The position numbers and the translations under genes were made by a program. Below, one piece after another: positions 990 to 18,239 of a stretch of 64,000 bases of DNA. The stretch comes from Streptomyces glaucescens (GTDB lineage: Bacteria; Actinomycetota; Actinomycetes; Streptomycetales; Streptomycetaceae). Under the pieces are notes generated by a model. It saw only the letters and a program-made list of their open reading frames with translations. It was not told the origin of the DNA and searched no databases. Location of the stretch: contig NZ_CP009438.1 in the NCBI RefSeq assembly GCF_000761215.1, forward strand, positions 372,001-436,000. Reading direction: 5' to 3'. Every line of letters begins with the position of its first letter. Position 1 is the first letter of the stretch.

Positions 990-1001
990 ATCGCCGCCGA
1001 T

Positions 1002-1138: not shown

Positions 1139-1149
1139 TGCGCAATTGG

Positions 1150-1200: not shown

Positions 1201-1212
1201 GTCCGGTCCCGC

Positions 1213-1239
1213 CGCGTCCGGCTCCTCCGGCCGGACGCG
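1213..1239. terminator. Bidirectional terminator between RNA array and minus-strand gene
   Basis: A perfect 9-bp stem (1213-1221 with 1231-1239) with a 9-base loop lies between the plus-strand RNA array and the stop of the convergent gene at 1243. Confidence 0.55.
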
Positions 1240-1242
1240 CCG

Positions 1243-2274: not shown

Positions 2275-2411
2275 GGCGGTGTTCTCTTCTGGAGCAGGGG
2301 TACGTCACGGCCCGCACGGCACCGGTTCGGCCGTTTGCCGGGCGACCGCATCGTACACAGGGCCGGGCGGCCGCCCCCGCCCGTGGGCCCGCGGTGGCGC
2401 CGACGGGCCCC

Positions 2412-2651
2412 CTACTTTTTCTTCTTCTTCAGGGCGGAGGGCTTGTGCACCGCCGTGCGGCCCGACTTGTCGCTGCGCACCTCGTACTGGGGGTCGTCCG
2501 GGGAGGCGGCCACGGTGCGTCCGGCCGCCTCGGTCCGCTCGGTGATCTTCTTCTGCACGGTGCCCGTGGTCTCGCTGCCGTGACTGCTCCAGGCGACCTT
2601 GTCGCCCTTCGCCGGTTCCTTGCCGGACGAGGAGTCCTTGTTCTTCGCCAT
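2412..2651 (-). CDS. DUF2945 / Hva1-TUDOR small protein
   Basis: 79 aa, very basic at the end (five Lys in a row). It matches the DUF2945 (hypervirulence-associated TUDOR domain) family: KGDKVAWSSHGSETTGTV is the hallmark start of the small beta-barrel. Function in Streptomyces is unknown; such proteins often sit among stress genes. It stands alone, with its own start at 2651, between the PASTA-like gene and the carotenoid operon. Confidence 0.75.
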   Translation of the reverse strand: MAKNKDSSSGKEPAKGDKVAWSSHGSETTGTVQKKITERTEAAGRTVAASPDDPQYEVRSDKSGRTAVHKPSALKKKKK

Positions 2652-2705
2652 GGTTGCCGCTCCCTCGTGGGTGGTGCGTGCCGCTTTCCACCTTGCGGGC
2701 TGCCG

Positions 2706-2729
2706 CCGCGCCGCGCACCTCCGGCGCGG
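2706..2729 (-). terminator. Possible terminator of the crtE-I-B operon
   Basis: An 8-bp perfect stem (2706-2713 with 2722-2729) and an 8-base loop lie just downstream of the last gene of the minus-strand carotenoid operon. Confidence 0.4.
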
Positions 2730-2750
2730 TGCGGGGCGCGCGGGACGGTG

Positions 2751-3770
2751 TCATCCGGGGAAGCGGCCCGTGGAGCGCAGTCGCCACCTCCGTTCGGCGT
2801 AGGCGAGGTCGTCGCGCCAGAGGCGGGCCGACGCGGTGCGCATGAGCGGGCGCAGCAGCGGCGCGGCGCGGCGTGCGACGGCGAAGCCGGGGCGGTCCGA
2901 GGCCGCCACCACCGCTTCGATCACCGCGGTGCGCGGGCGGCCCCGTTCGTCCGGGCCGAGGGGCGTGGCGTGGGTCTCGACGACCGAGCCCGCGCCCTCC
3001 CCTTCGGTGATGTGCATGACGACCGTGCGGGGTCCGGGCGCGGTGAAGACGGCCCGGACCGGCACGACGATCCGTCCCGCCACCTTGAAGGACACGTCGA
3101 CGGTGAAGCGGTCGGCGTCCGCGTCCCCGGCGCCGTCGGGCGCGGCGACCACGGTGAGTTCGACGAACGAGTACGGGTGGTACCAGGCCCCGTGCCAGGG
3201 GTCCAGCCGGTTCGCCACCACGTCCTCCGGCTCGCAGGTCCCGGTGCCGACGTGGACCGCCGCGAGGGCGCGGGCCCGGTCCGGCCGGCGCGGCACGACG
3301 GGCGCGTCCAGCGGCTCCTCCCCGCCGGCCTCGTCGAGCCGCACCCAGAGCAGGACCCCGTCGTCGTGCACGGGCAGCGGCTCCCAGCCGGCGCGCGGGC
3401 CGCCGTCCAGGGCGAGTCCGTGCCAGCGGCAGACCAGGGTGCCGCAGCGCACCGGGCTCTGGCCGAGGGGCGCGCCGAGGTGGGGGCACACGCCGGGCCC
3501 GGCGTGCGGCCGGCCGTCGGCGCCGCGCCAGACGACGACCTCCTGCCCGGCCACGGTCCGGGCCAGCGGCCGGTCGCCGCGCAGCGCGTGGGACGCTCCG
3601 ACGACGTACCAGTTGCCGGACGGGCGGGCCTGGGCGCGCTTCAGGGCCTGGGCGATCACCGCGGGTCTCGCCTCCCGCCAGGTGGGACGCTGGCGCTCCC
3701 AGGGGACGGGGCGCCGTCGCAGGGCGAGGGGCAGGCGGCCGCGTCGGGCGGGGGGCGGGGCGGGGTTCAC
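2751..3770 (-). CDS. Rieske [2Fe-2S] protein of the carotenoid cluster (crtV position)
   Basis: 339 aa. An N-terminal Rieske domain (about residues 50-130) has both ligand pairs, C95-P-H97 and C114-R-W-H117, which bind a [2Fe-2S] cluster. The C-terminal 200 residues (DUF5914-like) are of unknown function and may be a hydrophobic-substrate domain as in Rieske oxygenases, but I see no clear 2-His-1-carboxylate iron site. The start overlaps the crtB stop by 4 bases (ATGA), so translation is coupled. In S. griseus and S. coelicolor this slot is called crtV and was labelled a methylesterase; the sequence supports a redox protein instead. Its exact step in isorenieratene formation is not evident. 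Confidence 0.8.
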
Positions 3771-4789
3771 GCGGCCTCCTCGGGCACGGCGGGGCGGGCG
3801 GCGGGCGCGGCGGCCTGCCGGGTGTCCGCCGCGTCCGTGGCGGGGCGGCCGGCCCGGCGGTGGCGGAGCCGGGCGGCGGCCACGCGGGCGAGCCCGTCGG
3901 CGGCGACCGCCGCCCGGTGGCGGCGCGGCACCACGGCGCGGCGGTGCAGCACGGCGTGGCCGTCGCGGGCCACGGCGTCGAGGATGCCGCCGTAGAGCAC
4001 GTACGCGGTGCGGATGCAGGGCCGCGAGACCGGGTCGAGCAGGGCGAGCCCCGGCGCCGCCTCACGGTAGACGCCGCGGGTGAGCGCCTCGAACTCCCGC
4101 AGGGCCGCGGTCACGCGGGGGTCCCGGCGTCCGGTGTCCCTGCTCCAGCGCAGCAGTTCCCGGTCGACGCCGTGACCGGCGAGCAGGTCGGCGGGGAGGT
4201 AGACGCGGCCGCGGTCGAGGTCCTCGCCCACGTCCCGCAGGAAGTTGGTCAGCTGGAAGGCGACGCCCAGGGCGGCGGCGTACGGTGCGGCCTGCGCGCG
4301 CGGGACGACCGTGCCGAGGACGGGGAGCATCTGCAGGCCGATGACCGCGGCCGAGCCGTGCGTGTAGCGGCGCAGGTCGGCGTAGGTCGGGTAGTCGGTC
4401 ACCACCAGGTCGGAGCACATCGCGGTCATGAAGTCGTGGAAGTGCGCGTGGTCGATGGCGTAGCGGCGCGCGGTGTCCGCGACGGCTCGCACCACGGGTT
4501 CCGCGCTGTGCTGCTGCCGCAGTCCCCGCCGGAGGTTCTCGCGCAGTTCGGCGAGCGCGGTGCCGCGCTGGGCGGTGCCGGTGCCGGGGGCGGGCCGGTC
4601 CACGATGTCGTCGGCCCAGCGGGCGAAGCCGTAGAGGGCGTGCACCGCGGGCCTGCGCTCGATCGGCAGCAGCCGGGTGGCGAGGAAGTACGTCTTCCCG
4701 TGTCGTGCGTTCAGGGCGCGGCAGTGGCGGTACGCGGCGCGCAGCGCCGGATCGTGGATGCCGGCCGCGTCGAGTTCCCGGTCGGTCAT
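3767..4789 (-). CDS. crtB: Phytoene synthase
   Basis: 340 aa. It condenses two geranylgeranyl diphosphates to phytoene. Both aspartate-rich motifs are present: DDIVD at 60-64 and DVGED at 186-190 ([14 protein letters not shown]), with the conserved [12 protein letters not shown] context. The chosen ATG at 4789 overlaps the crtI stop (4786-4788). The reading frame stays open upstream, but that extension is inside crtI and has no family similarity. The last 60 residues are Ala/Arg-rich. Confidence 0.95.
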
Positions 4790-6381
4790 GCGGAGGTCTC
4801 CTTCACTGCGGGCGGCTCGGCGGCGGGCGGCTCGGCCGAGGGCGGCTTCGCGGTGGGGGCGGCGGCGGACGGCTTCCGGACGGGCGCCTTGCCGGAGGTG
4901 CGTCCGCCGGTGATCCGCGCGGCGGCCAGCTTCCCCGACAGCAGCACGGTGGGCACGCCGACACCGGGGGTGGTGCCGCAGCCCGCGAGTACGGCGTTCT
5001 CGGTGCCGCGCACCAGGTTGCGAGGCCGGAAGGGGCCGGTCTGCGCGAAGGTGTGGGCCGCCGAGAAGGGCGTCCCCGCGGCGTGTCCCTGGGCCTGCCA
5101 GTCGGCGGGAGTGATCAGGCATTCCTCCTGGACGGCGGCCTCGATGCCGTCCAGGCCGCGCCGTTCCAGCTCGCTCAGCAGCGTGTCCCGGTAGCGCGGG
5201 CCCAGATCGCTCCACGCGGCGGCACCGGGCCCGATGTCGGTGTTGGGGCAGGGCGCGAGAATGTAGTGCAGGTGGTGGCCTGGGGGTGCGAGCGAGGGGT
5301 CCGTGGCGGTGGGCCGGGTGATGAGCAGGGAAGGGTCGCTCATCAGCCGGCCGGTGCGGGTGAGTTCGTCGAAGGTGGACTGCCAGGCCGCCCCGAACGA
5401 GAGGGTGTGGTGGGCGAGGTGGTCCCAGGTGCGGTCGGTGCCCGCGTGCAGCACGACCGCGGACGGGGAGTGCCGCAGCGGCAGCGGCCTGCGGGGCCGG
5501 CGGCCGAGCAGCCGGTAGGCGACGGGCAGGTCGGGGGTGAGGACGACCGCGTCGCAGGGGATGCGGTCCTGGTCGGTGACGACCGCCGTGACCCGGGCCC
5601 CGGACCGTTCCAGGCGGGTGACGCGCCGGCCGAACCGCAGTTCGGCGCCCGCCTCGGCGGCGGCGTCCGCCATGGCCCGCGGCAGGGCGTGCATGCCGCC
5701 CCTGGGGAAGTACACGCCGGCGACGGTGTCCATGTAGGCGATGACGGCGTACGCGGCGAGGGCCCGGGCCGGGGGGACACCCGCGTACAGGGCCTGGAAG
5801 GAGAAGACGCGGCGCAGCCGCTCGTCCTTGAGGAAGCGGCCGATCCGCGCGTCGAGGCGGCCGAAGCCGCCGAGTGCGGCCAGCCGGACCAGGTCGGGGG
5901 TGAGCAGGTCCAGCGGGGAGTCGAAGTCCGCGTCGATGAAGCGGCGCATCTGTGCCCGGTAGAGCCTGGTCAGCCAGTCGCGCAGCCGCCGGTACCCCAG
6001 GGCCTCGGCCGGCCCGGCGAAGCGCTCGACCGCCTCGGCCATCGCGTCCGCGTCGGTGTGCACGTCGAGGCTGCTGCCGTCGGCGAAGCGGGCCCGGTAG
6101 GCGGGGTGGAGCGGGATCAGGTCGACGCGCCGGCGCAGGCTGTCGCCTACGGCCGCGAAGGCCTCGTCCGCGAGGTCGGGCATGGTCAGCACGGTGGGAC
6201 CGGTGTCGATCCGGTAGCCGCCGAGGGTGCGCCGGCCGGCCCGCCCGCCGGGCTCGGTGTCACGTTCGACCACGGTGACGCGGCGTCCGGCGCCGAGCAG
6301 GTGCAGGGCGGCCGACAGTCCGGCGAGTCCGGCCCCGACCACGACGACGTGATCCGTCCGTCCGGGCAGGGTGCGCGTCAT
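4786..6381 (-). CDS. crtI: Phytoene desaturase
   Basis: 531 aa. FAD-dependent desaturase converting phytoene to lycopene. The N-terminal dinucleotide fold has the [13 protein letters not shown] signature followed by ERD, and the C-terminal family signature reads [16 protein letters not shown]. The start at 6381 overlaps the crtE stop (ATGA); longer frames reaching 6624 lie within crtE and are rejected. The C-terminus carries an extra Pro/Ala-rich tail of about 35 residues ([11 protein letters not shown]). Confidence 0.95.
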
Positions 6382-8153
6382 CGGGCGGTCTCCCCGGTGC
6401 CGCCGTCCAGAGTCCGGGGCGAGGCGGCGGCCGGGGCGGCCGGGGTGCCGGGCACGCCCGAACCGGTGGCCCGCCCGCCCGCACCGGTGGCCCCGGGCAC
6501 GTCCGCGCCGGTGGCCCGCCCGCCCGATCCGGTGGCCCCGGGCCCGCCCGATCCGGTGGCCCCGGGCACGCCCGAACCGGTGGCCCCGGGCACGCCCGCA
6601 CCGGGGACGGACATCGGCCCGCACGGGGCCGTCCCGGCCCTGGCCTCGGTCTGCCCCAGACCGGCCCCGGAGGTGTCGGGCGCCCCGGTCCCGGCCGGGA
6701 CGGGCCGGGGCGGGGGCGGGGGCACGGCGTCGTGGGGAGGCTCGCCGGCCACCGAGCGCAGCAGGCTCCGCAGCCGGCGTCCGCTCTCCGGCTCCAGGCG
6801 GGCGCGGTCGAAGTGGCGCAGTCCCTGGGCGACGAGCCGGGCGATCCTGCCCTCGACCTCGTCCCGGGCGCCCGTCGCCACCAGGACGTCCCGCACCTCG
6901 TCGAGGCCGTCCGCGGTCAGCTCCACGTCACCGGGCGCCCGTTCCAGCACGGCCAGGGCCCGGTGGTCCGCCCTGGCCTCGGCGCGGGCCCGGGCGAGGG
7001 CGGTCACGTACGTCAGCTTGCCCTCGCGGATGTCCCCGCCGGCGGGTTTGCCGGTGCGCGCGGGATCACCGAAGACGTCGTTCAGGTCGTCCCGCAGCTG
7101 GAACGCCATGCCGACACGGCGGCCGGCCGAGCACAGCGCGCGCAGCGTGGTGTCGTCCGCGCCCGCCAGGGCGGCGCCCAGGGCGAGCGGCCGTTCCACC
7201 GAGTACAGGGCGCTCTTCAGGCAGGCGGCGCGCAGCGCCCGCGGCAGGGACCGCGCGCCCGTGGTCTGGCCCTGGACGTCGAGGTACTGGCCGGCGACCA
7301 TCTCCGTGCGCATGTCGCTCCACAGGCGGCGCACCACGATCGCGGTCCAGGCGGGCAGCGGGGTCTCCGCCACCAGGTCGTCGGCCCAGGCGAGGGCGAG
7401 GTCGCCGGCCAGGATGGCGGCCGACTCCCCCAGCCGGTCGGCGCGGGCGGGCGGCGCCTGGCCGGCGTACTGCGCACGCACGTCGGCGTGCAGCGCGGGC
7501 CGGCCGCGACGCAGCGCCGCCCCGTCCATGACGTCGTCGTGGACGAGGGCACAGGTCTGCAGCAGTTCGAGTGCCGCGCCGATCCGCAGCGCGGCGTCGG
7601 CGGCCGCCGGGTCGGAGGCGCCGCACGCGCGCAGGGACCACCAGACCAGCCGTGCCCGGGTCCGTTTGCCGCCCTCGCGGGTGAAGCGCGCCACGCGTTC
7701 CGCGAGGTCCCGCGCGAACAGCGGGTCGGCCGCGCGGGCCCGGGCGAGGCGATCGGCCAGCACGTGGTCGAGCATCCGCCCGACGGCGGCGGACACGTCC
7801 GCGTCGACCGTGCCGACGTCGGCGCGGACGGCGGGCACGGCGGCCTCGGCGGGCACCTCCGCGGGCGTGCGCGCGTCCGCGTGGACGCCGTGCGCCTCCG
7901 CGCCGACGGCACGCCGGTCCGCGGTGCCCGGGCCGCGTGCGGGGGCGCCGTGGGCACGCGGGTCGGCGGTTCCCGCGGGACCGGGTACGCCCCGGGGGTG
8001 GCGTACGGCGGTTCCGGCGGCCGGCCGGTCGTCCTCGGCACCGGCCGGCGCGCCCTGCGGCCGCGCCCGGACGGGGGAACCCGGCAGGGCGACCAGGCGT
8101 GGCACGGGCGGCGGCGGGGCCGCGTGGTGATCCTTCGCCTGTGTGGGGCGCAT
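6378..8153 (-). CDS. crtE: Geranylgeranyl diphosphate synthase with long low-complexity tails
   Basis: 591 aa from the ATG at 8153. It makes C20 diphosphate for phytoene. Both polyprenyl synthase motifs are present: DDVMD (in LVHDDVMDGA) and DDLND (in QLRDDLNDVFGD). The protein is far longer than usual (about 350): roughly 100 N-terminal residues are Pro/Ala/Gly-rich, and the last 120 are a Gly-Ala-Thr-Ser-Pro repeat tail. Two starts have good ribosome sites: ATG 8153 (GAGAGG, 7-base gap) and ATG 8195 (GGAAGGA, 5-base gap); I prefer 8153. It heads the operon crtE-crtI-crtB-Rieske and is divergent from crtY. Confidence 0.9.
   Translation of the reverse strand: MRPTQAKDHHAAPPPPVPRLVALPGSPVRARPQGAPAGAEDDRPAAGTAVRHPRGVPGPAGTADPRAHGAPARGPGTADRRAVGAEAHGVHADARTPAEVPAEAAVPAVRADVGTVDADVSAAVGRMLDHVLADRLARARAADPLFARDLAERVARFTREGGKRTRARLVWWSLRACGASDPAAADAALRIGAALELLQTCALVHDDVMDGAALRRGRPALHADVRAQYAGQAPPARADRLGESAAILAGDLALAWADDLVAETPLPAWTAIVVRRLWSDMRTEMVAGQYLDVQGQTTGARSLPRALRAACLKSALYSVERPLALGAALAGADDTTLRALCSAGRRVGMAFQLRDDLNDVFGDPARTGKPAGGDIREGKLTYVTALARARAEARADHRALAVLERAPGDVELTADGLDEVRDVLVATGARDEVEGRIARLVAQGLRHFDRARLEPESGRRLRSLLRSVAGEPPHDAVPPPPPRPVPAGTGAPDTSGAGLGQTEARAGTAPCGPMSVPGAGVPGATGSGVPGATGSGGPGATGSGGRATGADVPGATGAGGRATGSGVPGTPAAPAAASPRTLDGGTGETAR
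6451..6606 (-). repeat. Imperfect 24-bp tandem repeat coding the CrtE tail
   Basis: Units of about 24 bp encode variants of GATGSGVP (PGATGSGV, PGATGSGG, GRATGADV). There are about six units inside crtE. They are in-frame multiples of 3, so copy number can vary without breaking the gene. Confidence 0.75.
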
Positions 8154-8337
8154 CCCGGTTCCTCTCGTCGTGCTCGTCGTTCCTCCGTCATCCACGTCCT
8201 TCCGCCCGGGCGGCGGTTACGGATGCGGCACAGGCATGCCCGCTCCGGCCGTGCGGCTCCCCGCCCGTGCCTCCGTTCGGCGGCGCCACGCGCCCGAGGG
8301 GGTGGTGTGTCCGCCGCATTCCTGCATCCGTCCGGGC

Positions 8338-8356
8338 CCGGACGGGGGAAGCAACC
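8338..8356 (-). promoter_or_regulatory. Element shared by crtE and SpoIIE-phosphatase upstream regions
   Basis: CCGGACGGGGGAAGCAACC here and CCGGACGGTGGAAAGCAACC at 15379-15398 differ by one substitution and one base of length. On the transcribed strand both read GGTTGCTT-TCC...CCGTCCGG, about 185 bases upstream of crtE. It may be an ECF-sigma promoter or an operator; this is inferred from two occurrences only. The 273-base crtE/crtY divergent interval holds no gene. Confidence 0.4.
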
Positions 8357-8426
8357 GGCGGATGCGGGAACGCGGAGACGCGCACACGCGCGGACGCGCA
8401 GATCACGGCGAGAGGGAGGAACCGGC

Positions 8427-9614
8427 GTGCTGGAGACGGAGGTCGCCGTCCTGGGGGCGGGAGCCGCGGGGCTGTCCCTCGCCCACCGGCTCGCGGGGCA
8501 CCTGCCGGGCACCCGCACCCCCTCGGTGGTGCTGGTGGACGCGCCTCCCGGACCGCTGCGCCCGCCGCCGCGGACCTGGTGCTTCTGGGAGTCCGGCCGC
8601 GGCCGGTTCGACGCGGCGCTGCGCGCCGAATGGCGGTGGCTGCGGGTGTGTCCGCCCTCGGGCGCCCCCATCGAGGGGGACATCGCCCCGCTGCGCTACA
8701 AGATGATCCGCTCCGACGACTTCGCGCACCTGGTCGGGAGGGACCTGGCCCGCAGTCCGAACGTGCGGCGGCTGGAGGCGGCCGTCGAGACGGTGGAGGA
8801 CGTGCCGTCGGGCGCCCACGTCCGGGTGCGGGCCCCGGACGGCGGCAGCGCGGTCCTGCGTGCCCGCTGGGTGTTCGACTCCCGCCCGCCCGGCAGCCTG
8901 CCGGCCGCGCGGACCACCCTCCTGCAGCACTTCCACGGCTGGTTCGTGCGTACGGCGCGCCCGGTGTTCGACGTCCGCGCCGTGGAACTGATGGACTTCC
9001 GCACGCCGCAGCCCGCCGAGGGCCTGTCCTTCGGCTACGTCCTGCCGCTCGGCTCGCACGAGGCGCTGGTGGAGTACACCGAGTTCTCGTCGCGCCCGCT
9101 CACCGCGGACGGGTACGAGTCGGCCGTGCGGCAGTACGCCGACGAGGTGCTGCGGCTCGGCCAGGCACGGATCGTCGCGACGGAGACCGGGGTCATCCCG
9201 ATGACGGACGCGCCGATGCCGCGGCAGGTCGGCGCGTCCGTCTTCCGCATCGGTGCCGCAGGCGGCGCCACCCGCCCCGCCTCCGGCTACACCTTCGCCG
9301 GTGTGCAGCGCCAGGCCCGGGCCGTCGCGTGGGCCCTGCGCCGGGGGCGCCGGCCGGTGCCGCCCGTTCCGCACTCGGCCCGCTCGCGGGCCATGGACGC
9401 CGTCCTGCTGCGGGCCCTGGACAGCGGCCGCGTCGACGGGCCGGCGCTGTTCTCCCGCCTGTTCGCGCGCGTCCCCATGGGGCGGCTGCTGCGCTTCCTC
9501 GACGGCCGCACCCGGCTGTACGAGGACCTCGCCGTCGGCCTGCGCACCCCCGCCGGGCCGATGCTGCGGTCCGCCGCGGAGCTCGCCTGGCTGCCGCGTC
9601 GCCCCTTCGACTGA
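8427..9614 (+). CDS. crtY: Lycopene cyclase
   Basis: 395 aa, GTG start with AGAGGGAGGA six bases upstream. FAD/NAD-binding N-terminus (VAVLGAGAAGLSLAHRL) and the lycopene cyclase signature PRTWCFWE near residue 52, then GFVLP-type (GYVLPLGSHEALVEYT) and TRPASGYTF motifs. It converts lycopene to beta-carotene, the CrtU substrate. First gene of the plus-strand carotenoid operon. Confidence 0.93.
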   Translation: MLETEVAVLGAGAAGLSLAHRLAGHLPGTRTPSVVLVDAPPGPLRPPPRTWCFWESGRGRFDAALRAEWRWLRVCPPSGAPIEGDIAPLRYKMIRSDDFAHLVGRDLARSPNVRRLEAAVETVEDVPSGAHVRVRAPDGGSAVLRARWVFDSRPPGSLPAARTTLLQHFHGWFVRTARPVFDVRAVELMDFRTPQPAEGLSFGYVLPLGSHEALVEYTEFSSRPLTADGYESAVRQYADEVLRLGQARIVATETGVIPMTDAPMPRQVGASVFRIGAAGGATRPASGYTFAGVQRQARAVAWALRRGRRPVPPVPHSARSRAMDAVLLRALDSGRVDGPALFSRLFARVPMGRLLRFLDGRTRLYEDLAVGLRTPAGPMLRSAAELAWLPRRPFD

Positions 9615-9670
9615 GCCACCCGTCCACCCGTACGCCCGTCGGCACCTCCGCCGATCCGTCCCCGCCCGTC

Positions 9671-9696
9671 CCCTACGGCTGATCCCTACGGCTGAT
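9671..9696. repeat. 13-bp perfect tandem duplication
   Basis: CCCTACGGCTGAT occurs twice head to tail (9671-9683, 9684-9696) between crtY and crtT, a likely slippage product in the 120-base gap. Confidence 0.8.
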
Positions 9697-9734
9697 CCCC
9701 TCCCCCGCCCGCCCCTTCGGCTCCCGGAGACCGC

Positions 9735-10466
9735 ATGACCCTCCTGCGCGACGAGGAACTCGCCGCCGCCTTCGACCACGCCTCCCGCACCTACGACGCG
9801 CTGGTGGCCGCCAATCCCGGCTACCACGCCCACCTGCGCCGCTCGGTGCGCCGGCTCGGCCTGCCCGGGCACGGCGCGGGGCTGCGCCTGCTGGACCTCG
9901 GCTGCGGCACCGGCGCGTCGACCGCCGCCCTGCGCTCGGTCCTGCCGGGCGCGGACATCACGGCCGTGGACGCCTCCGCCGGCATGCTGGAACGGGCCGC
10001 CGCCAAGCCCTGGGCCCGGGGGGTGACCTTCGTGCGGGCGCCCGCGGAACGGCTGGCGCGGGCCGGGGTGCGGGGACCGTTCGACGCCGTGTTCGCCGCC
10101 TACCTGTTCCGCAACGTCGCCGACCCCGACGCCGTACTCGGCACCGCGCGCGCCCTGCTGCGGCCCGGCGGACGGCTGGGGGTGCACGAGTACACCCTCG
10201 GCGGGCGCCGCGTGGACCGGGCGGTGTGGGCACTGGTCTGCCGCGGTCTCGTCCAGCCCGTCGCGAGCGTCCTCGGGGACGGCGCGCTCTACCGCCATCT
10301 GTGGCGCAGTGTGGTGGAGTTCGACACCGCCGGCCGCTTCGCGGACCGCCTGCGCGCGGCGGGCTTCGACTCGGTGCGCGCCCTGCCCCTGCCGGGCTGG
10401 CAGACGGGCATCACCCACACGTTCGTCGCCCGCCGGGCGGACGCGGACCCGGAGGAGGCACGATGA
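9735..10466 (+). CDS. crtT: SAM-dependent methyltransferase of the carotenoid cluster
   Basis: 243 aa. Class I methyltransferase of the UbiE/COQ5 type with the SAM motif LLDLGCGTGAS near residue 50 and VDASAGML after beta2. It sits between crtY and crtU as in S. griseus and S. coelicolor, where the gene is called crtT; its substrate is not certain. The stop overlaps the crtU start. Confidence 0.85.
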   Translation: MTLLRDEELAAAFDHASRTYDALVAANPGYHAHLRRSVRRLGLPGHGAGLRLLDLGCGTGASTAALRSVLPGADITAVDASAGMLERAAAKPWARGVTFVRAPAERLARAGVRGPFDAVFAAYLFRNVADPDAVLGTARALLRPGGRLGVHEYTLGGRRVDRAVWALVCRGLVQPVASVLGDGALYRHLWRSVVEFDTAGRFADRLRAAGFDSVRALPLPGWQTGITHTFVARRADADPEEAR

Positions 10467-12025
10467 ACGGTGTGCCGGCGGCGCGCTCCGGCGGCGCCCG
10501 CAGGGGCCGGGACCGCCGGGCCCGCGTGCTGCCCGCCCGGCCGGGCGCCCGGAGGATCGACGGGGCCCGCCCCACCACCGCCGTGATCGGGGGCGGTATC
10601 GCCGGGCTGGCCGCCGCGACCGCGCTGGCCGAACGCGGGGTGGCCGTCACCCTGTACGAGCGGCGGCCCTATCTGGGCGGGCGGGTCGGCGGATGGCCGA
10701 CCCGGCTGCGGGACGGCAGCACGGTCACCATGAGCCGCGGCTTCCACGCGTTCTTCCGCCAGTACTACAACCTGCGGGGGCTGCTGCGGCGCACGGATCC
10801 GGGGCTGGAACGGCTCACCGCCCTGCCGGACTATCCGCTGCTGCACGCGGGCGGCCTGCGCGACAGCTTCCGGCATGTGCCCCGCACTCCGCCGTGGAGC
10901 GCGCTCGGCTTCGCCGCGCTCAGCCCCTCGTTCCGCCTGCGGGACCTGCGCGCCATGAACCCGGTGGCGGCGCTGCCGCTGCTCGACGTCCGCGTCCCGC
11001 AGGTGTACGAGCGTCTCGACGGCACCAGCGCCCACGACTTCCTGGACGCCGTGCGCTTCCCGCGCGGCGCCCGTCACCTGGCGTTCGAGGTGTTCTCCCG
11101 CAGCTTCTTCGCCGACCCCCGGGAGCTGTCGGCGGCGGAGATGGCCCTGATGTTCCACATCTACTTCCTCGGGTCCGCCGAGGGCCTGCTGTTCGACGTG
11201 CCCCGCTCGCCCTTCCCGGCCGCGCTGTGGGACCCGCTGGCCGCCTACCTGGGACGGCACGGCGCGGAGGTGCGCACCGGCACGGCCGTCGAGAGCGTCA
11301 CCCCCCGGCCCGACGGCGGCTACGACATCGCCGCCGGCCGGGAGGAGCGGCGCCACGACACGGTGGTGCTGGCCCTGGACACCGCGGGCCTGCGCTCCGT
11401 CGTGGCCCGCTCCGAGCGGCTGGGGGACGGCCCGTGGCGCGAGCGGATCGCGCGGCTGCGCACCGCCCCGCCCTTCCTGGTCAGCCGGCTGTGGCTGGAC
11501 CGGCCCGTCGCGCCGGACCGGCCGGGCTTCCTGGGCACCAGCGGGTTCGGCACCCTGGACAACATCAGCGTGCTGGAGCGCTGGGAGGACGAGGCGGCCC
11601 GCTGGGCCGCGCGCACCGGGGGCTCGGTCGTGGAGCTGCACGCGTACGCGGTACCGCCGGAGGCGACCTGGGACATCGAGCAGAAGCTCCTGATCGACCA
11701 GTTGCACCGCGTCTACCCGGAGACGCGCGCGGCCTCGGTGGTCGACGCCCGCCACGTCTGGCACGACGACTGCCCGCTGTTCCCGGTGGGCGGCTTCACC
11801 GGCCGGCCGGCCGTCCGCACTCCGGATCCCGGGCTGGTGGTGGCCGGCGACCTGGTCCGCACCGACCTGCCGGTGGCCCTGATGGAACGCGCGGCGACGA
11901 CCGGGTTCCTGGCCGCCGACGCGCTGCTGGAGCGGTGGGGCGTACGGGGCCGGGCCCTGTGGACGGTGCCGGACCGCGGACGCGGGGCGGTGCTGCGCGG
12001 ACTGGCCGGGTGGGCGGGACGCTGA
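10463..12025 (+). CDS. crtU: Beta-carotene desaturase/methyltransferase forming aromatic rings
   Basis: 520 aa. FAD-dependent flavoprotein with GGGIAGLAAATALAERG near residues 40-56 and the C-terminal VVAGDLVRTDLPVALMERA signature. CrtU aromatises the beta-ionone rings of beta-carotene to give isorenieratene, so the cluster end product is predicted to be isorenieratene. The ATG overlaps the crtT stop and is preceded by GGAGGAGG. A 35-residue Arg-rich N-terminal extension precedes the fold. Confidence 0.92.
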   Translation: MNGVPAARSGGARRGRDRRARVLPARPGARRIDGARPTTAVIGGGIAGLAAATALAERGVAVTLYERRPYLGGRVGGWPTRLRDGSTVTMSRGFHAFFRQYYNLRGLLRRTDPGLERLTALPDYPLLHAGGLRDSFRHVPRTPPWSALGFAALSPSFRLRDLRAMNPVAALPLLDVRVPQVYERLDGTSAHDFLDAVRFPRGARHLAFEVFSRSFFADPRELSAAEMALMFHIYFLGSAEGLLFDVPRSPFPAALWDPLAAYLGRHGAEVRTGTAVESVTPRPDGGYDIAAGREERRHDTVVLALDTAGLRSVVARSERLGDGPWRERIARLRTAPPFLVSRLWLDRPVAPDRPGFLGTSGFGTLDNISVLERWEDEAARWAARTGGSVVELHAYAVPPEATWDIEQKLLIDQLHRVYPETRAASVVDARHVWHDDCPLFPVGGFTGRPAVRTPDPGLVVAGDLVRTDLPVALMERAATTGFLAADALLERWGVRGRALWTVPDRGRGAVLRGLAGWAGR

Positions 12026-12079
12026 GCGCCGGGCCGGACGACGGCACCCGCGGGGCCCCGTCCTGACGCCTCACCGTCG

Positions 12080-12462
12080 TCACGACGTGCCGTCCGGTCT
12101 CGGCTCCGCCGTCGCGTCGGTGGCCGGCGACCGCCCGCGGGCGCGGTGAGGTGGGCGAGGACGCCGGTCTGGCGGAGCACGCGTTCCAGCGCCTCGGGCC
12201 GGTTGTCCGGGTGCAGGGTGGCGCGGACGGCGCTGGTGTGGCGGTGCGGCATCAGCAGTGCCGCCGGTCCGAGCGGGTCGATGCGGGTCAGCCCGGTGAA
12301 GTCGAGCCGTACGTCACGCACCCCGGGGACGAGGTGGCCGCGGACGACGCCGGCCAGGTCGTGCCCGCTGTCGTGGTCCGGCTCGCCGCCCACCTGGACG
12401 ATCAGCGTGGCCGGCGCGCTGCCGACGACGGGGTGCGGCGGGGCGGCGTGGGGCTCGGTCAG
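12080..12462 (-). pseudogene. STAS-domain protein with frameshift and no standard start
   Basis: The frame from 12462 encodes a STAS domain (anti-sigma-antagonist fold): TLIVQVGG, DVRLDFTGLTRIDPLGPAALL, RVLRQTGVLAHLT. Three oddities are visible. The phosphorylatable DSSG serine is replaced (DPLG). No ATG/GTG/TTG lies near the natural start; the frame begins at a CTG overlapping the upstream stop (CTGA). Beyond about 12,125 the codons lose high GC3 while another frame regains it and ends neatly (PRPDGTS then TGA at 12080), implying loss of one base near 12121-12140. As written, the frame runs on into crtU antisense. Either a decaying gene or a sequence error. Confidence 0.55.
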
Positions 12463-13556
12463 GCGTGGGCGGCGAGTTCCTGGGCGGGCGGGTCCGCGGG
12501 GTGGTCGCGCAGTGCGGCGGCGCCCGCGCGGAGCATGGCCAGGGTGCGCGGGGCGTCGCGCGACTGCCCGGCCAGGATGTCGAGTGCCGTGCGGAGGGAG
12601 TCGGCGGGGACCCGCCGTGCGGCGAGGATCTCCGCCGTCCAGGTCAGGAACGAGGTGAAGACTTCGGGGTCGTCGACGTAGAGGGCGGTCGCGAGGAAGT
12701 CCACGATGTGGGCGATGTCCTCGGCGGTGTGTTCCCGCTGCTCGTCGGAGTATCCGCGCAGCGCGGGGAACCGGTGCTCCAGGTCGGTCATCGTCCGCCT
12801 GACCAGGGAGCCGCGCGACCGGACGGCCATCGTGTACTCCTGGTCGGCCAGGTGCGGCAGGTCGTCGACGGTCTGCCGGACCGCGGTGGGCAGCGGCCGG
12901 GGCAGCCCGCCCTCCAGTACGGCGGCCGCGCCGCGGGCGTCCGCCGCCCACCGGTCGGCGCCCAGGGCCCGCGCGAACCGGCCGTCGGGGCCGAAGGCGC
13001 GGCCCCCGGCCAGCACCGGCACGCCGACGGCCTGGCAGGCGGTGATGGCGGCGTGGGCGGCCGGCAGATGGGTGGGGAGCGAGCCGGAGAGCAGCACCGC
13101 GCCGGGGTCGGTGTCGTGCAGGTGGGCGACCAGGTGCGGGGTGGGTGTCTGGGCGCCGAGGTAGTCCACGTGCCAGCCGCGCAGCCGCAGCACCTCGGTG
13201 ACGAGCCGGGCCGGGAAGGCGTGCCATTCGCCGTCGACACAGCTGACGGTCACCCGGCCGCGCGGGGCGGCGCCGCGGGGGCGGCGGGCCGCCGACCGGT
13301 GGACGAGGGCGGCGACCACGCGGTCGTTGACGGCGGTGGCGGCGTGCTCGCGGGCCACGGTGATCCGGTTGGCGGCCCACTCGGCGCCCACCTTGACCTG
13401 CACCGCCGCGACGACGTCGAGCAGCAGGCCCTCCTCGTCCCAGCCGGCGTCGGCAGCGGCGGTCACGACGTCCACGGCGGCGGGCTCGCTGCCCTCCGTC
13501 ACCGCCCGCCAGAGGTGATCGCGCAGCTCGGCAGCCGATGTGCGGGGGTCAGTCAA
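12459..13556 (-). CDS. Cobalamin-binding protein with B12-photoreceptor signature, no HTH
   Basis: 365 aa, TTG start at 13556 preceded by GGAGGA and overlapping the upstream stop by 8 bases. Residues 10-90 form the helical cap of the B12-binding module with the Wx9EH motif (W60...E70 H71) that marks AdoCbl photoreceptors such as CarH. Residues 100-225 are the Rossmann-like B12 domain with E110-W-H112 at the place of the lower-ligand His motif. The C-terminal 130 residues (230-365) are an all-helical domain I cannot name. The DNA-binding domain of CarH/LitR is absent, so output is probably by protein contact with the adjacent SpoIIE phosphatase and STAS partner. A light or cobalamin sensor role is inference. 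Confidence 0.75.
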   Translation of the reverse strand: MTDPRTSAAELRDHLWRAVTEGSEPAAVDVVTAAADAGWDEEGLLLDVVAAVQVKVGAEWAANRITVAREHAATAVNDRVVAALVHRSAARRPRGAAPRGRVTVSCVDGEWHAFPARLVTEVLRLRGWHVDYLGAQTPTPHLVAHLHDTDPGAVLLSGSLPTHLPAAHAAITACQAVGVPVLAGGRAFGPDGRFARALGADRWAADARGAAAVLEGGLPRPLPTAVRQTVDDLPHLADQEYTMAVRSRGSLVRRTMTDLEHRFPALRGYSDEQREHTAEDIAHIVDFLATALYVDDPEVFTSFLTWTAEILAARRVPADSLRTALDILAGQSRDAPRTLAMLRAGAAALRDHPADPPAQELAAHA

Positions 13557-15303
13557 CCGTTCCTCCCGGGGGTTCCGTGGGTGTCGTCGTGCGGCCGTCC
13601 GCCGGACGGCCGGACCGTGGGGCGCTGATGGCCACGGCGGCCATGTCGTCGTGGGCGCCCGCGGCCAGCCACTGCCCGGCCAGCATCTGCACCCGCTCGA
13701 CGATCGCCTCGCCCGGCATGCCCCCGCACTCCGTCAGTGCCTTGCGGAGGCGGTGTTCCCCGAACAGTTCGTCGCCCAGCGGTCCGCCGCGGGCCTCGGT
13801 GATGCCGTCGGTGTAGAGCAGGCAGGTCTCCCCGGGGGCGAGTTCGGTCTCCGCGGTGCGCGCCGTGACGGCCGGCAGGGCGCCCACCAGGGTGCCCTGC
13901 GTGGCCGCCTCCTCCACCGTGCCGTCGGCGCGGACGATCAGCGGCGGCAGGTGACCGGCGCTGGTGAGGCGCAGCCGCACCCGGTCCTCGTGGCGCCGCA
14001 CGGACGCCAGGACCAGGGTGGCGAAGCGGGTGTGGTGCGAGGTCAGCAGGGCGCCGTTGAGCAGGTCCAGCACCTGGCCGTGGTCCCCGGCGAGGGGCAG
14101 CAGCGCCTGGAGCGTGTTGCGGATCTTGCCGGTCAGCACCGCCGCGTCCAGTCCCTTGCCCGCCACGTCGCCGAGCACGACGAGGGTCTCCCCCGCGGGT
14201 CCGGGGGCGGGGTGGACGTCGTAGAAGTCCCCGCCGACGCGTTCGTGGTCCTGCGCGGGGCGGTACCCGCCTGCGTACTCCACGCCGTGCACCTGGCTGA
14301 GCCGGGGCGGCAGCAGGTCCCGCATGAGCGTGGCCGTGATCGCGGCCTGCTCGCTGTAGAGGCGGGCGGCGGACAGCGCGGCCCCCGCGCGGGCGGCGAA
14401 CAGCCGGGCGAAGACCTCCTCGCCCGGGGTGAAGCCCTGGTGGGTGGCGGAGCGCAGCAGGATCAGCGCTCCGGCGGGCACGCCGTGTCCGGGCAGCGGA
14501 GCCACGATCACGGAGCCGATCCCTCCGGTGAAGCCGGGCGGGACCACCCACGCGGGGATGGCGGCCGGATCGATCCAGCGTGCCGGCACCGGCGGGAAGC
14601 CCTGGAGCGCTTCCGCGAGGCCGGGGACCGCGCGCGGGTCCATCTGGTGCGCGCTCTGGACGACGGGGGCGCCGCGCCGGGCGTGGCTGAGCGGGTAGCG
14701 CCTGCCCTGGGGCGGCGCGATCAGCACGGCGGCGTCGGCCAGGTGCTCGGCCGCCAGACCGGCGGCCAGTTCGCTGCAGCGGGCGACGTTCAGCGAGGAC
14801 AGCAGGGTGCCGGACACCTCGGCGAGGACGGCGGTCCGCTCCTCGGCGCCGCGCAGGGCGCTCTCCGCGCGGTGGCGGTCGGTGCCGTCGAACAGCCACC
14901 AGGTCACGTGGCCGTCCGGGGTGGTGGTGGGGTGGGCGGCGTAGATGCGGTCGCCGATGGGGCCGGTGGGCGGGTCGCCCGCCGGGCCGTGCGGGTCGCG
15001 GGCGACGCGCGCGTGGGCGTCGGCCAGCCAGCGCGGCAAGCGGTCACGGGGCGGGCCGCAGGGGTGGGCGCCGTCCGGGGTGGGGGTGCCGTTGCCGTGG
15101 GGGGCGGGGACCGCGGGGAAGCACGGCCGGGCCGCGCGCGGGCCGGGTGGGTGCGCCGGCAGCGCCCGCGCCGCCCGGTTGGCGTCGAGGACGGTGCCGT
15201 CCCGGTCGACGACGAAGACCGGACAGGGTGCGTCAACCCAGGCCGTGCCGACGCTGACGCCGGCATCGCGGGGGTCGAGGGAAGAGCCGTGAGAAGAAAC
15301 CAC
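13549..15303 (-). CDS. PAS-GAF-SpoIIE type PP2C phosphatase
   Basis: About 584 aa from the GTG at 15303; longer in-frame starts exist up to 15378 and beyond, and no start has a clear ribosome site. The N-terminal PAS-like region (VDAPCPVFVVDRDGTVLDANRAAR) is followed by a GAF-like region (residues about 170-340) and a C-terminal SpoIIE/PP2C domain with metal motifs GGDFYDV, GDVAGKGLDAA, YTDGITEA and HDDMAAVAI. Such enzymes dephosphorylate STAS anti-sigma antagonists. It overlaps the cobalamin protein downstream, forming a phosphatase-sensor-STAS unit. Confidence 0.85.
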   Translation of the reverse strand: MVSSHGSSLDPRDAGVSVGTAWVDAPCPVFVVDRDGTVLDANRAARALPAHPPGPRAARPCFPAVPAPHGNGTPTPDGAHPCGPPRDRLPRWLADAHARVARDPHGPAGDPPTGPIGDRIYAAHPTTTPDGHVTWWLFDGTDRHRAESALRGAEERTAVLAEVSGTLLSSLNVARCSELAAGLAAEHLADAAVLIAPPQGRRYPLSHARRGAPVVQSAHQMDPRAVPGLAEALQGFPPVPARWIDPAAIPAWVVPPGFTGGIGSVIVAPLPGHGVPAGALILLRSATHQGFTPGEEVFARLFAARAGAALSAARLYSEQAAITATLMRDLLPPRLSQVHGVEYAGGYRPAQDHERVGGDFYDVHPAPGPAGETLVVLGDVAGKGLDAAVLTGKIRNTLQALLPLAGDHGQVLDLLNGALLTSHHTRFATLVLASVRRHEDRVRLRLTSAGHLPPLIVRADGTVEEAATQGTLVGALPAVTARTAETELAPGETCLLYTDGITEARGGPLGDELFGEHRLRKALTECGGMPGEAIVERVQMLAGQWLAAGAHDDMAAVAISAPRSGRPADGRTTTPTEPPGGTVD

Positions 15304-15378
15304 GAGCGGAGGTACGCATGGCGCGCACCTCACCACCTCTCTGCTGGGCGACGGTTCGCTCAGGCCACCGTCGCCCAT

Positions 15379-15398
15379 CCGGACGGTGGAAAGCAACC
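15379..15398 (-). promoter_or_regulatory. Copy of the crtE-upstream element before the SpoIIE phosphatase gene
   Basis: CCGGACGGTGGAAAGCAACC; the minus strand reads GGTTGCTTTCC then ACCGTCCGG about 75 bases upstream of the chosen phosphatase start. See 8338-8356 for the partner copy. Confidence 0.4.
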
Positions 15399-15522
15399 CC
15401 GGTCGGGGCGGGGTGACGAGTCCGCGCACGGACGACACCGCCTCATGCCCCGGACACGGCGGTTCACACCTGGGGCCCGGCGCGCCGAACCGGCTTCCCG
15501 GCGCCCGCGCCCGCAAGCGCGG

Positions 15523-15555
15523 CGCCGGCCGCGTCCGAGGGGGACGCGGCCGGCG
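15523..15555. terminator. Strong 14-bp hairpin terminator
   Basis: 15523-15536 pairs perfectly with 15542-15555 (5-base loop GAGGG). It lies downstream of the small minus-strand gene ending at 15652 and upstream of the phosphatase module, so it separates two minus-strand units. Confidence 0.65.
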
Positions 15556-15651
15556 AAGAGGGAGTACGGGCCGCCGCTCCGGAGCGGCGGGCCGGGAGCG
15601 GAGGTCCGCACCCGGGGGCCCGCGCCCGTCACGGCCCGGTCCGGCCGGCCG

Positions 15652-15795
15652 TCACTCCTCGCCCTCCCGCCCCGTGTCGTCCCCCTGGCTCCCCGTGTCC
15701 TCGCCCTCCGCCTGGGACGGGGTCGTCCGCGGCACGTCGCGGCGGCCGGTGTCCTCCGGCTCGCCCTCCGCCTGGGACGGGGTGTGCTCACTCAT
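15652..15795 (-). CDS. Small acidic disordered protein, 47 aa
   Basis: The frame has a good ribosome site (GGAGG, 7 bases before ATG) and high GC3. The protein (MSEHTPSQAEGEPEDTG...) is almost entirely Glu/Asp/Gly/Ser/Thr and contains an internal duplication of TPSQAEGE. No domain is recognised. It resembles the 54-aa protein at 23262-23426 in size and composition. Probably a stress-related intrinsically disordered protein, by composition only. Confidence 0.65.
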   Translation of the reverse strand: MSEHTPSQAEGEPEDTGRRDVPRTTPSQAEGEDTGSQGDDTGREGEE

Positions 15796-15831
15796 TCCGG
15801 AACCTCCATGTCGTCGATCGGGTCTGTGCTC

Positions 15832-16239
15832 TCAGGCTGTCGTGGGGCGCCCCGGGCGTGCCGTGCGCAGCCAGGCCGCGATCCAGCCCGTCTGCATCGC
15901 GGCGTCGAGCAGATACGTGGGACGGATCCGTCCCTTCGGCACGTAGACGAGGTCGACGGCCAGCAGGGTCAGGGCGGTGCCCAGACCGATGCGGCGCGCC
16001 TGGGCCGGGCCCCGGGGGGCCGGCGCCGCCGCGAGCTGCGCGACGCCCGCGGACACCAGCAGTCCCCCGGTCGTCATCTGCAGCCACTCGTCGGTCTTGG
16101 GTCCGAAGACCCACTCGAAGCTGCGCAGGTGCACCAGTGGCCACAGCCCGCCCGCGATGTTGAAGGCGCCGTGCGCGAACGCCAGGCCGACGCCGGGTTG
16201 CAGGACTTTCCTTCCGCGCACAGCGCCTCCCTCGCACAT
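15832..16239 (-). CDS. Small integral membrane protein, 135 aa
   Basis: From ATG 16239. Four hydrophobic segments are likely (about 14-32, 50-70, 80-100, 105-125), with motifs FAHGAFNIAGGLWPLVH and FEWVFGPKTDEWLQMTTGG. It belongs to a widespread actinobacterial type of unknown function. Divergent from the carboxylate-amine ligase at 16473; the shared 233-base interval must hold both promoters, but I see no convincing hexamers. Confidence 0.65.
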   Translation of the reverse strand: MCEGGAVRGRKVLQPGVGLAFAHGAFNIAGGLWPLVHLRSFEWVFGPKTDEWLQMTTGGLLVSAGVAQLAAAPAPRGPAQARRIGLGTALTLLAVDLVYVPKGRIRPTYLLDAAMQTGWIAAWLRTARPGRPTTA

Positions 16240-16472
16240 ACTGAATCCAGGGGCAGGTCCCCTCACGGCTCGGCGAGTGCCCCCGACTGCGCGTTCCCAT
16301 CCGTGTTCGGGCACGTTGATCGCCTCACGTTTGGAACGGCGCAGGCACGGCACTTGTCCGGCGCCCCTCGGGACGGCGGGGCGACTTACGGGCACCGTGA
16401 GGAGCGGCCCCGGTACGCAGGAGCGCACCGCCGCGTTGCCGGAGCGGTGCCCGGCGAGCAGGGAAGGTGCAC

Positions 16473-17567
16473 ATGACAACCGTCGGTGTGGAAGAGGAGT
16501 ACCTGCTCGTCGACGTGGCCACGGGAAGGCTCAGCCCGTACGGCGAGAAGGTGCGGGCCGCGGCCGGTCTGGAGCGGTTCGTCGCGGCCGACGAGGTCCA
16601 GCTCGAGCTGCTGCAGGCCCAGGTGGAGGTGGCCACGCCGGTCTGCGGCACGCTGGAGGAGGTCGGCGGGCACCTGCTGCGGCTGCGGCACGCCGTGGCC
16701 CTCGCGGCGGAGACGCACGGCTGCCGCATCATGGCCAGCGGCACCGCCCCCATGGCGCAGGACGCGGCCGTACCGGTCACGGACAAGGCCCGGTACCGGG
16801 CGATGCTGCGGCAGGCGCCCCAGCTGGTGGCGGAGCAGATGGTCAACGGCATGCACGTGCACGTCGCGGTGCCCAGCCGTCGTTCCGGCGTCGAGGTGCT
16901 GAACCGGCTGCGGCCGTGGCTGCCCACGCTGACCGCCATGGGGGCGAACTCCCCGCTGTGGGACGGGCACGACACGGGTTTCGCGAGCTGGCGCACCATC
17001 GTCTTCGACCGGTGGCCCGTCAGCGGCGTCCCGCCGCACTTCGCCGACGACACCGACTACGACCTGCGGATGCGGCGGCTGCTGTCCACCGGCGTGATCG
17101 CCGACAGCGGCCAGCTGTACTGGCAGGCCCGGCTGTGCGAGCGCTACCCCACCGTCGAGGTGCGCTGTGTGGACGTCCAGCCGCGCACCGACGACGCCGT
17201 GATGTTCGCCGGGCTCGTGCGCGGCCTGGTGGAGACGGCCATGCGGGACGCGGGCGCCGGGCGTCCGGCGCCGGAGACGGACCCCGAGCTGCTGAAGGCC
17301 GCCATGTGGCAGGCCGCCCGGCACGGCCTGAGCGGGGACCTGCTCGATCCCGCCGGCCGGCGCTGCCGCGCCGGTGACGTGGTGTACCAGCTCCTCGAAC
17401 GCATCGCGCCCGCGCTCGAGGAGGCCGGTGACACCCGGGAGGTCACCGCGCTCGTCCACCGTCTGATGCAGCACGGCACGGGCGCGGACCGGCAGCGCCA
17501 GACGCTGGCCGACGGCGGCCCCGGTGCCGTGGTCGACATGCTCACCGAGGCCACCGTGATGCCGTGA
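16473..17567 (+). CDS. YbdK-family carboxylate-amine ligase (copy 1)
   Basis: 364 aa. Glutamate-cysteine ligase type 2 superfamily, recognised by [10 protein letters not shown] at the N-terminus, HVHVAVPS (HxH metal/substrate motif), [17 protein letters not shown] and TVEVRCVD. Family members make gamma-glutamyl bonds weakly with Cys, but the physiological substrate is usually unknown. The ATG at 16473 has GGGAAGG five bases upstream and is preferred over GTG 16467. A second, divergent homologue lies at 31972-33126. Confidence 0.85.
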
Positions 17568-17587
17568 CGGGCCGCGGCCCCGGCGGG

Positions 17588-17833
17588 TCAGGCGCCGAGT
17601 TTGCCGGCCAGGTCGGTGAGGATCCGGGCCAGGTCGCGCACCTCGCCGTCGGTCGGCGCCGGGCCGAGACGGTCCACCAGGTCCCGCCTGGTGATCACGA
17701 GCAGGGCTCCCGCCGGCCCCTCCTCGTCCGGCGCGGCGTGGTCGACCACGTGTGCCCTGCCTTCCAGCAGGACGAGCGCGGCGTCCTCGCTGCGGGCATC
17801 ATGAAGTCGCCTGACATGGGTCTCGTCGATCAT
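17588..17833 (-). CDS. Hypothetical protein, 81 aa
   Basis: From ATG 17833 (MIDETHVRRLHDARSED). Mixed alpha/beta, acidic, no membrane segment. The region LLEGRAHVVDHAAPDEEGPAGALLVITRRDL could be a small beta-sheet domain. Not recognised. Convergent with the ligase gene at its left, divergent from the 89-aa gene. Confidence 0.5.
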   Translation of the reverse strand: MIDETHVRRLHDARSEDAALVLLEGRAHVVDHAAPDEEGPAGALLVITRRDLVDRLGPAPTDGEVRDLARILTDLAGKLGA

Positions 17834-17936
17834 CCGCCGGCCTCCGGTCGTTCGGGGGTTTCCCAGGTGCCTCGGCGGGTGCCCGCCCACGACCAGGTGA
17901 ACCGTTCACCGCAACCAGCCGACGGGGAGTGAACCC

Positions 17937-18206
17937 GTGCCGCAGCCGGACGACGAACTGCTCGCCTTCGACACCAGTGGCCTGGAGGACTGGGACGAGG
18001 GGCGTGCGCGCGCCGCCCTGGACGGCGGTCAGGGCGCCCTGTACCGCAACCATCTGCGGATCGCCCTCCGGCTGGACGCGTGGGCGGAGGCCGAGGGCCG
18101 GCGCACCGACGTGGACGCGCGGTACCGCGCCGGGTACACCCAGGCCCTGCGGGACATGGCCGCGTTCCTCAGGCAGACCTACTACCTCCCCGCGGACACG
18201 GAGTGA
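17937..18206 (+). CDS. Hypothetical protein, 89 aa
   Basis: GTG start with GGGGAG upstream. Acidic, helical (RNHLRIALRLDAWAEAEGRRTDVDARYRAGYTQALRDMAAFLRQTYY), no membrane segment. Not recognised; the repeated heptad-like leucines suggest a helical bundle or an interaction protein. Confidence 0.6.
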   Translation: MPQPDDELLAFDTSGLEDWDEGRARAALDGGQGALYRNHLRIALRLDAWAEAEGRRTDVDARYRAGYTQALRDMAAFLRQTYYLPADTE

Positions 18207-18239
18207 GACACGGCCTGCGCTGCCGCCCCGGTCGTCCGG

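Follow-up and report, generated by a model that had tools for sequence, protein, structure and literature searches.

Photocobilins, photoreceptors in which a B12-binding module is joined to a bilin-binding globin domain, were described in 2024. In another line of signalling proteins, the SigF partner-switching phosphatases of the Rv1364c type, kinase and STAS domains lie within one chain. Here we analyse a 64,000-nucleotide stretch of Streptomyces glaucescens DNA (NZ_CP009438.1, positions 372,001 to 436,000; this whole 64-kb stretch is called the window, and positions are counted from its first letter) in which a photocobilin gene is set between a SpoIIE-type phosphatase gene and a STAS frame, beside a carotenoid cluster. 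The phosphatase shares the PPM domain of the Rv1364c type (PDB 3ke6), but in this photocobilin family these parts are encoded separately, with a photocobilin as partner. SasPcob of Saccharothrix syringae (PDB 8J2W/8J2X, PMC10979010) has the same domain order, length, Trp/Glu-His/His ligands and bilin Asp and Trp as the S. glaucescens protein. In the parts of PMC10979010 covered here, SasPcob potentially interacts with STAS, SpoIIE and PP2C-like phosphatases by a STRING-network prediction, and to that extent the SpoIIE/STAS link is already known. The S. glaucescens copy, known here from sequence, differs in its carotenoid-cluster neighbour, its damaged STAS frame and a genome without the PF01126 heme oxygenase. 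The photocobilin-diguanylate cyclase AbDPcob (sensor part, PDB 8J2Y) has the same two sensor domains and shows, in the published account as far as covered, that a photocobilin can switch an enzyme; there the enzyme is fused and a His replaces the bilin Asp, whereas S. glaucescens has a separate phosphatase and the Asp. CarH/LitR proteins share the B12-binding module and the adenosylcobalamin (AdoCbl) pocket residues, with about 30% identity in the B12 part, but the photocobilin lacks their MerR DNA-binding domain and has the extra globin domain.

Judged by its sequence and by a structural model, the product of the middle gene (12459..13556, minus strand; TTG start, 365 residues, standalone) is a member of the photocobilin family rather than a bare CarH-like domain. 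Pfam matches B12-binding_2 (1.1e-10) and B12-binding (1.2e-14) and no DNA-binding domain, N-terminal MerR included; a four-helix and Rossmann B12-binding module (residues ~8-216) is followed by a C-terminal globin-like bilin-binding domain (~239-350). The best match among solved structures is SasPcob 8J2W (phmmer, E 1.8e-79, residues 11-352), the second AbPcob 8J2Y (E 1.6e-36), and CarH entries match in the B12 part only (E 3e-10 to 3e-9). An AlphaFold model (predicted local distance difference test score, pLDDT, 87.7) finds its best structure matches in 8J2X/8J2W along the whole chain, with template modelling (TM) scores of 0.84 by query and 0.91-0.93 by target at 45-46% identity; for the CarH chains among the matches listed, TM by query is 0.44-0.49, over about half the chain. 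SasPcob Trp61, Glu71-His72, His108, His137, Asp270 and Trp296, whose roles at the chromophores are taken from the covered parts of PMC10979010, correspond to W60, E70-H71, H112 (within E110-W111-H112), H141, D280 and W306. Nine residues separate W60 from E70, as in SasPcob (W61/E71), a motif given as W-(10)x-EH in the part of PMC10979010 consulted. The bilin site thus has its equivalents of Asp270, Trp296 and His137, position 280 being Asp as in SasPcob where AbPcob has His. The GxxW, EH, GxxH and GxxxP motifs, described in the covered part of PMC11796333 as the four signatures of photoresponsive cobalamin domains, are all readable. Across 81 rows (80 relatives and SasPcob), W60, E70, H112, H141, D280 and W306 are invariant and H71 is kept in 80, so the motif set is not due to chance; the relatives are the best 80 of 373 confirmed by genome scan, and the conservation figures given here therefore describe close relatives.

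The phosphatase gene (13549..15336, minus strand, with a GTG start at 15303 or at one of two candidates, 15333/15336) encodes a PPM/SpoIIE domain (PF07228, E 4.6e-41) preceded by sub-threshold N-terminal matches to PAS and GAF. Its GGDFYD, GDVAGKG, YTDGITE and AHDD motifs are intact, and the motif aspartates 360, 380, 500, 553 and 554 are Asp in 77, 77, 78, 79 and 79 of 79 rows, the remainder being gaps with no substitution. The sole solved relative at E <=1e-10 is the Rv1364c-type 3ke6. We therefore assign the protein, on sequence grounds, to the SpoIIE/RsbU PPM type, with a predicted activity on phosphorylated STAS proteins. On the minus strand (12086-15336) the order of transcription is phosphatase, photocobilin, STAS frame; the photocobilin start overlaps the SpoIIE stop by 8 bp (TTGACTGA), and the photocobilin stop shares 4 bp with the STAS frame. 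A scan of positions 1-20000 with Rfam gave zero matches.

These results bear on a first-pass annotation of the window, made from the sequence alone. It had read a Wx9EH motif (W60, E70, H71) and an ExH motif in a cobalamin photoreceptor-like protein that lacks a DNA-binding domain, and the residues are indeed at the positions named, with Pfam agreeing on the domain. The trio of photoreceptor, phosphatase and STAS genes beside a carotenoid cluster is likewise real. Its CarH-like identity holds for the B12-binding module but was incomplete, as the bilin-binding globin domain, and with it the photocobilin family, had been overlooked; and the overlaps of the middle gene with both neighbours exist, but the STAS frame on one side is damaged.

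The pairing of photocobilin and phosphatase is general among the close relatives, which are mainly Streptomyces with Streptacidiphilus, Kitasatospora, Actinacidiphila, Amycolatopsis and mycobacteria. The gene immediately upstream of the photocobilin encodes SpoIIE in 78 of 80 (none was found at L055 and L071), and 65 have a STAS-like frame immediately downstream; 53 of the 80 carry a motif of the D-S-x-G-L type. In their fetched flanks (<=6 kb), where genes were picked by a script using G+C at third positions and gene ends are approximate, 42 of the 80 relatives have one of three types of HATPase_c_2 anti-sigma-type ATPase and 8 have a SigB-type sigma gene, with matches reaching down to ~42 bits from queries drawn from the same loci and with Pfam confirmation of one example per type. 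As a yardstick, the 40 ATPase matches in the 7.6-Mb S. glaucescens genome would, by our own arithmetic, place one in ~6% of 12-kb stretches by chance. At L062 and L146, sigma, ATPase, SpoIIE, photocobilin and serine-bearing STAS genes follow each other in this order on one strand, L146 being a Streptomyces-genus locus with a 74% identical photocobilin and a sigma gene cut by the contig end. These counts and the two full rows support a partner-switch output in close relatives, and for this group partner switching is a sound reading of the gene content. The same SpoIIE-photocobilin-STAS operon, with the STAS Ser intact, occurs in mycobacteria (L091, L093, L096-L100, L102, L103). In Streptomyces poonensis (L089:931-7415) the operon is present twice in tandem and adjoins a Rieske gene resembling the one in the carotenoid cluster, and at L146 (991-5400) the complete sigma module is followed by a very large hybrid sensor with kinase, receiver, phosphatase and ATPase-like parts, read by eye.

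In S. glaucescens the third gene of the operon is decaying. The frame (11713..12462, minus strand; STAS-like part 12086-12462) still matches Pfam STAS_2 (E 1.7e-9; 38.2 bits against a cut-off of 29.2), but it has three lesions. A CTG stands at 12462 where an ATG is expected, the next in-frame start being 23 codons later, and an ATG overlaps the photocobilin stop in 53 of 53 serine-bearing relatives; the phosphoacceptor motif Asp-Ser-x-Gly-Leu (DSxGL) has become Asp-Pro-Leu-Gly-Pro (DPLGP), with Pro in place of Ser; and the frame stays open for 249 codons, running antisense into crtU, as against 114-169 in the 53. Of the 19 rows in the clade that includes this locus (support 97/92), 17 are linked to crtU or crtT, and in none is the Ser kept: 10 have Pro, Ala or Arg and in 9 the gene is absent, whereas photocobilin and phosphatase remain intact. 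In the remaining 62 rows the Ser is kept in 53, lost in 1, the gene absent in 6, decayed in 1 and replaced in 1 by a weakly matching different STAS. These labels come from a pattern match with reassignment on reading (L092, L094, L106 and L109 to Ser, L078 to decayed, L080 to other; L035, unmatched by the pattern, has no Ser by eye). As L088, L095 and L108 are crt-linked outside the clade and keep the Ser, crt linkage alone is not the cause of its loss. The median ratio of non-synonymous divergence (dN) between STAS and photocobilin is 3.28 in the clade (11 pairs) against 1.55 elsewhere (20 pairs), in a simple pairwise count over chosen, partly overlapping pairs in which L031-L035 were aligned across 20 codons only. 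By the same count the median ratio of non-synonymous to synonymous rates (dN/dS) of the clade photocobilins is 0.25, and that of STAS is 0.55 in the clade against 0.40 elsewhere. The simplest reading is that the photocobilin-phosphatase pair at the S. glaucescens locus is kept for a job that needs no linked STAS. In Streptomyces marokkonensis (L035) a run of ~16 leucines breaks up the degenerate STAS downstream of the photocobilin.

Upstream of spoIIE, 16 of the 18 clade relatives have one of the ATPase types, KIN1, and 15 a gene for the adenosylcobinamide amidohydrolase CbiZ, a family assignment resting on one example. CbiZ lies between the anti-sigma-type ATPase and spoIIE (L031:3458-4138 and 14 other clade loci), a placement that may tie corrinoid salvage to the photoreceptor. 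The single CbiZ of the S. glaucescens genome is at 7.06 Mb and KIN1 has no match in the window; both are unmatched in the sister locus L042. At E <=1e-30, KIN1 has one match in five of six clade genomes searched, by coordinates the copy at the photocobilin locus, and none in the sixth, that of L042. A 72% KIN1 relative in S. glaucescens adjoins a SigB-type gene (itself an 82% relative) 6.4 Mb along the contig. This neighbourhood would suggest that the KIN1 of the clade belongs to one particular SigB-type gene, but in five clade genomes the best sigma matches (78-79%) adjoin an acpS-like gene, named by eye, which makes the pairing uncertain. In genome G596, a KIN1-like gene adjoins crtU (by eye), with no photocobilin at the E 1e-60 threshold.

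We consider it probable, from sequence and by analogy with the described photocobilins, that the photocobilin controls the phosphatase, that the phosphatase acts on STAS partners encoded elsewhere, and that carotenoids are possibly among the outputs. In the dark, AdoCbl would be bound with His112 as lower ligand and with Trp60 and Glu70-His71 surrounding the adenosyl moiety; a bilin, if available, would be held by Asp280 and Trp306. Light would cleave the Co-C bond and change the assembly, as homology to SasPcob suggests, and the resulting state would set phosphatase activity through direct contact. Direct control is proposed because the two proteins are co-encoded and translationally overlapped; photocobilin domains acting in trans on a diguanylate cyclase are reported in the covered parts of PMC10979010. 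In relatives with an intact STAS, the gene content suggests that the phosphatase would dephosphorylate it and that the dephosphorylated STAS would capture the anti-sigma ATPase, freeing the SigB-type sigma factor. In the S. glaucescens lineage, since the linked STAS is decaying, the phosphatase would have to act on STAS proteins from other loci. A more specific version is advanced tentatively and is rather doubtful: the pair may have shed its own STAS and been rewired in trans to other STAS/anti-sigma pairs, as a second B12 light input for isorenieratene beside LitR, operating, without heme oxygenase, on AdoCbl alone or on bilin from another source.

Several observations weigh against our preferred reading of trans-acting control. 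Among distant relatives (~35-40% identity or less), a SpoIIE match lies near only 3 of 21 loci (L010-L030, with ~1.5-kb flanks), some of which match the B12 part only. The three ATPase types and the SigB-type gene of the relatives have no tblastn match in the window. The linked STAS has lost start, Ser and stop, and yet its decay is incomplete in places within the clade, where 8 of the 10 computable pairs have a STAS dN/dS below 1. Heme oxygenase PF01126, the one heme-degrading family searched, is absent from the S. glaucescens genome, and in the covered part of PMC11796333 biliverdin-free SasPcob is unable to dimerise. About 275 kb from the operon (~659-663 kb), a LitR-like MerR-B12 protein adjoins ECF-type sigma and photolyase genes, both named by eye. 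A SigB-type promoter consensus, taken from general knowledge, is absent between crtE and crtY of the locus; the same pattern occurs once each in 2 of 13 such regions of relatives (L075, L088; L042 was excluded, its crtE match giving no region). A stricter pattern has 0 matches in the whole window, which says little, as 0.16 are expected by chance. Finally, genome G411 has ~90% identical DNA along most of the flanking crt and right-hand genes and keeps crt but not the operon: the match ends at 12238, within the STAS frame, where identity is 76%, and resumes at 15424, at adjoining places. This looks like a deletion in G411, although an insertion in the S. glaucescens line is possible. Where S. 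glaucescens has the photocobilin operon, G411 has an FAD-type (flavin adenine dinucleotide) oxidoreductase gene (L144:6552-7805, by eye).

The link to carotenoids comes from neighbourhood and co-occurrence. The carotenoid cluster lies to the left of the operon, with crtB, crtI and crtE on the minus strand and crtY and crtT on the plus strand (3767..10466), followed by the isorenieratene synthase-like crtU (10460..12025, plus strand), which stands tail-to-tail with the photocobilin operon; these genes were named by eye from their translations. Within 3 kb downstream of the photocobilin, crtU or crtT is found in 20 of 80 relatives (crtT only at L052, L057 and L063), and on an 82-row tree the crt-linked label requires at least three changes, with differing arrangements. 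Across 295 Streptomyces-genus genomes, photocobilin (E <=1e-60) is present in 103 and CrtU (E <=1e-100) in 147, with both in 79: CrtU accompanies photocobilin in 79 of 103 genomes and occurs in 68 of the 192 without it (Fisher odds ratio 6.0, p 9e-12, uncorrected for kinship). In 11 of the 79, S. glaucescens included, the two genes lie <=15 kb apart, and split contigs can hide more. A precedent exists in Mycobacterium smegmatis, whose isorenieratene genes are directed by SigF, a sigma factor controlled by partner switching, according to the covered parts of PMC4694148 and PMC7693655. The position of the operon and the co-occurrence point to carotenoid synthesis as one of the outputs, but a direct promoter link was not found.

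The alternative that survives best, a plausible one though short of an even chance, is that the operon is a stress-signalling module placed beside the crt genes by happenstance, carotenoids being controlled by the LitR-like protein and its ECF sigma alone. Given the LitR-like protein with its ECF-type sigma and photolyase neighbours at ~659-663 kb, the LitR route may act alone; the operon-free site in G411, the modest share of relatives with crtU or crtT nearby and the missing SigB-type promoter fit it too. Against happenstance stand the repeated crt linkage in different arrangements and the strong, kinship-uncorrected co-occurrence with crtU. The LitR-like protein has its MerR DNA-binding domain (L113) and, by eye, a W-to-EH spacing of ten residues instead of nine (L113:1066-2271, L132). 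As this system is present in S. glaucescens, the LitR route is not missing there. The proposal in the first-pass annotation, of output through partner switching of a sigma factor, is well supported among close relatives, with their ATPase and sigma genes, but not at this locus, with its STAS lesions, its window free of kinase or sigma matches and its lack of a SigB-type promoter.

We consider it unlikely that the linked STAS frame yields a protein that acts without phosphorylation, as an anti-anti-sigma factor that cannot be phosphorylated and is always active. The Pfam match above cut-off and the STAS dN/dS, mostly below 1, would fit, as would eight other clade members in which Ala, Arg or Pro replaces Ser while the overlap still has an ATG or GTG; given the median of 0.55, some clade members may still use the protein. 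At the S. glaucescens locus, however, the CTG start, the two prolines in the motif and the lost stop argue against it, and 9 of the 19 clade members have no such gene at all.

An improbable alternative is that the protein senses B12 rather than light, reporting the AdoCbl level to the phosphatase. The presence of CbiZ between the ATPase and spoIIE genes in 15 of the 18 clade relatives, though not at the S. glaucescens locus, is in line with this, as is the lack of PF01126, which makes biliverdin supply in S. glaucescens doubtful. The kept bilin residues and the four photoresponsive signature motifs speak for a light sensor. PF01126 is present in 267 of the 295 genomes and is missing in 7 of 103 with photocobilin and 21 of 192 without (p 0.30), which gives no tie between the two. 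It is missing more often where CrtU is present (21 of 147 against 7 of 148; p 0.005, uncorrected for kinship).

An intact three-gene switch, in which light-activated photocobilin would stimulate SpoIIE, the linked STAS would be dephosphorylated and sigma would be freed for the carotenoid genes, agrees with the gene order, the overlaps and the 53 of 80 relatives that have the same layout with the STAS Ser in place, but it is very unlikely here given a STAS without an ATG, GTG or TTG start at the right place, without Ser and without a nearby stop, in a clade where 0 of 19 members have the Ser and STAS evolves faster.

In the open-licence literature, we found nothing beyond PMC10979010 that combines at least four of the five themes cobalamin, light, SpoIIE, carotenoids and partner switching. 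As far as that literature was searched, three things are new, namely a conserved operon that includes complete sigma modules, its association with carotenoid genes and the STAS decay in the crt-linked lineage, and the 2022 photoglobin work and the supplements of PMC10979010 may overlap with them. The photocobilin literature, in the parts covered, shows no natural cellular target of a standalone photocobilin. In this family the overlapping SpoIIE phosphatase presents itself as a concrete target, with SigB-type partner switching as a likely pathway and carotenoids as a readout visible to the eye, all in Streptomyces that can be cultivated. The loci grade naturally from full rows of sigma, ATPase, phosphatase, photocobilin and STAS to pairs without STAS, a series that bears on the choice between action of the phosphatase in cis and in trans. 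The S. glaucescens trio suggests that light may reach a stress or carotenoid response through a rewired switch.

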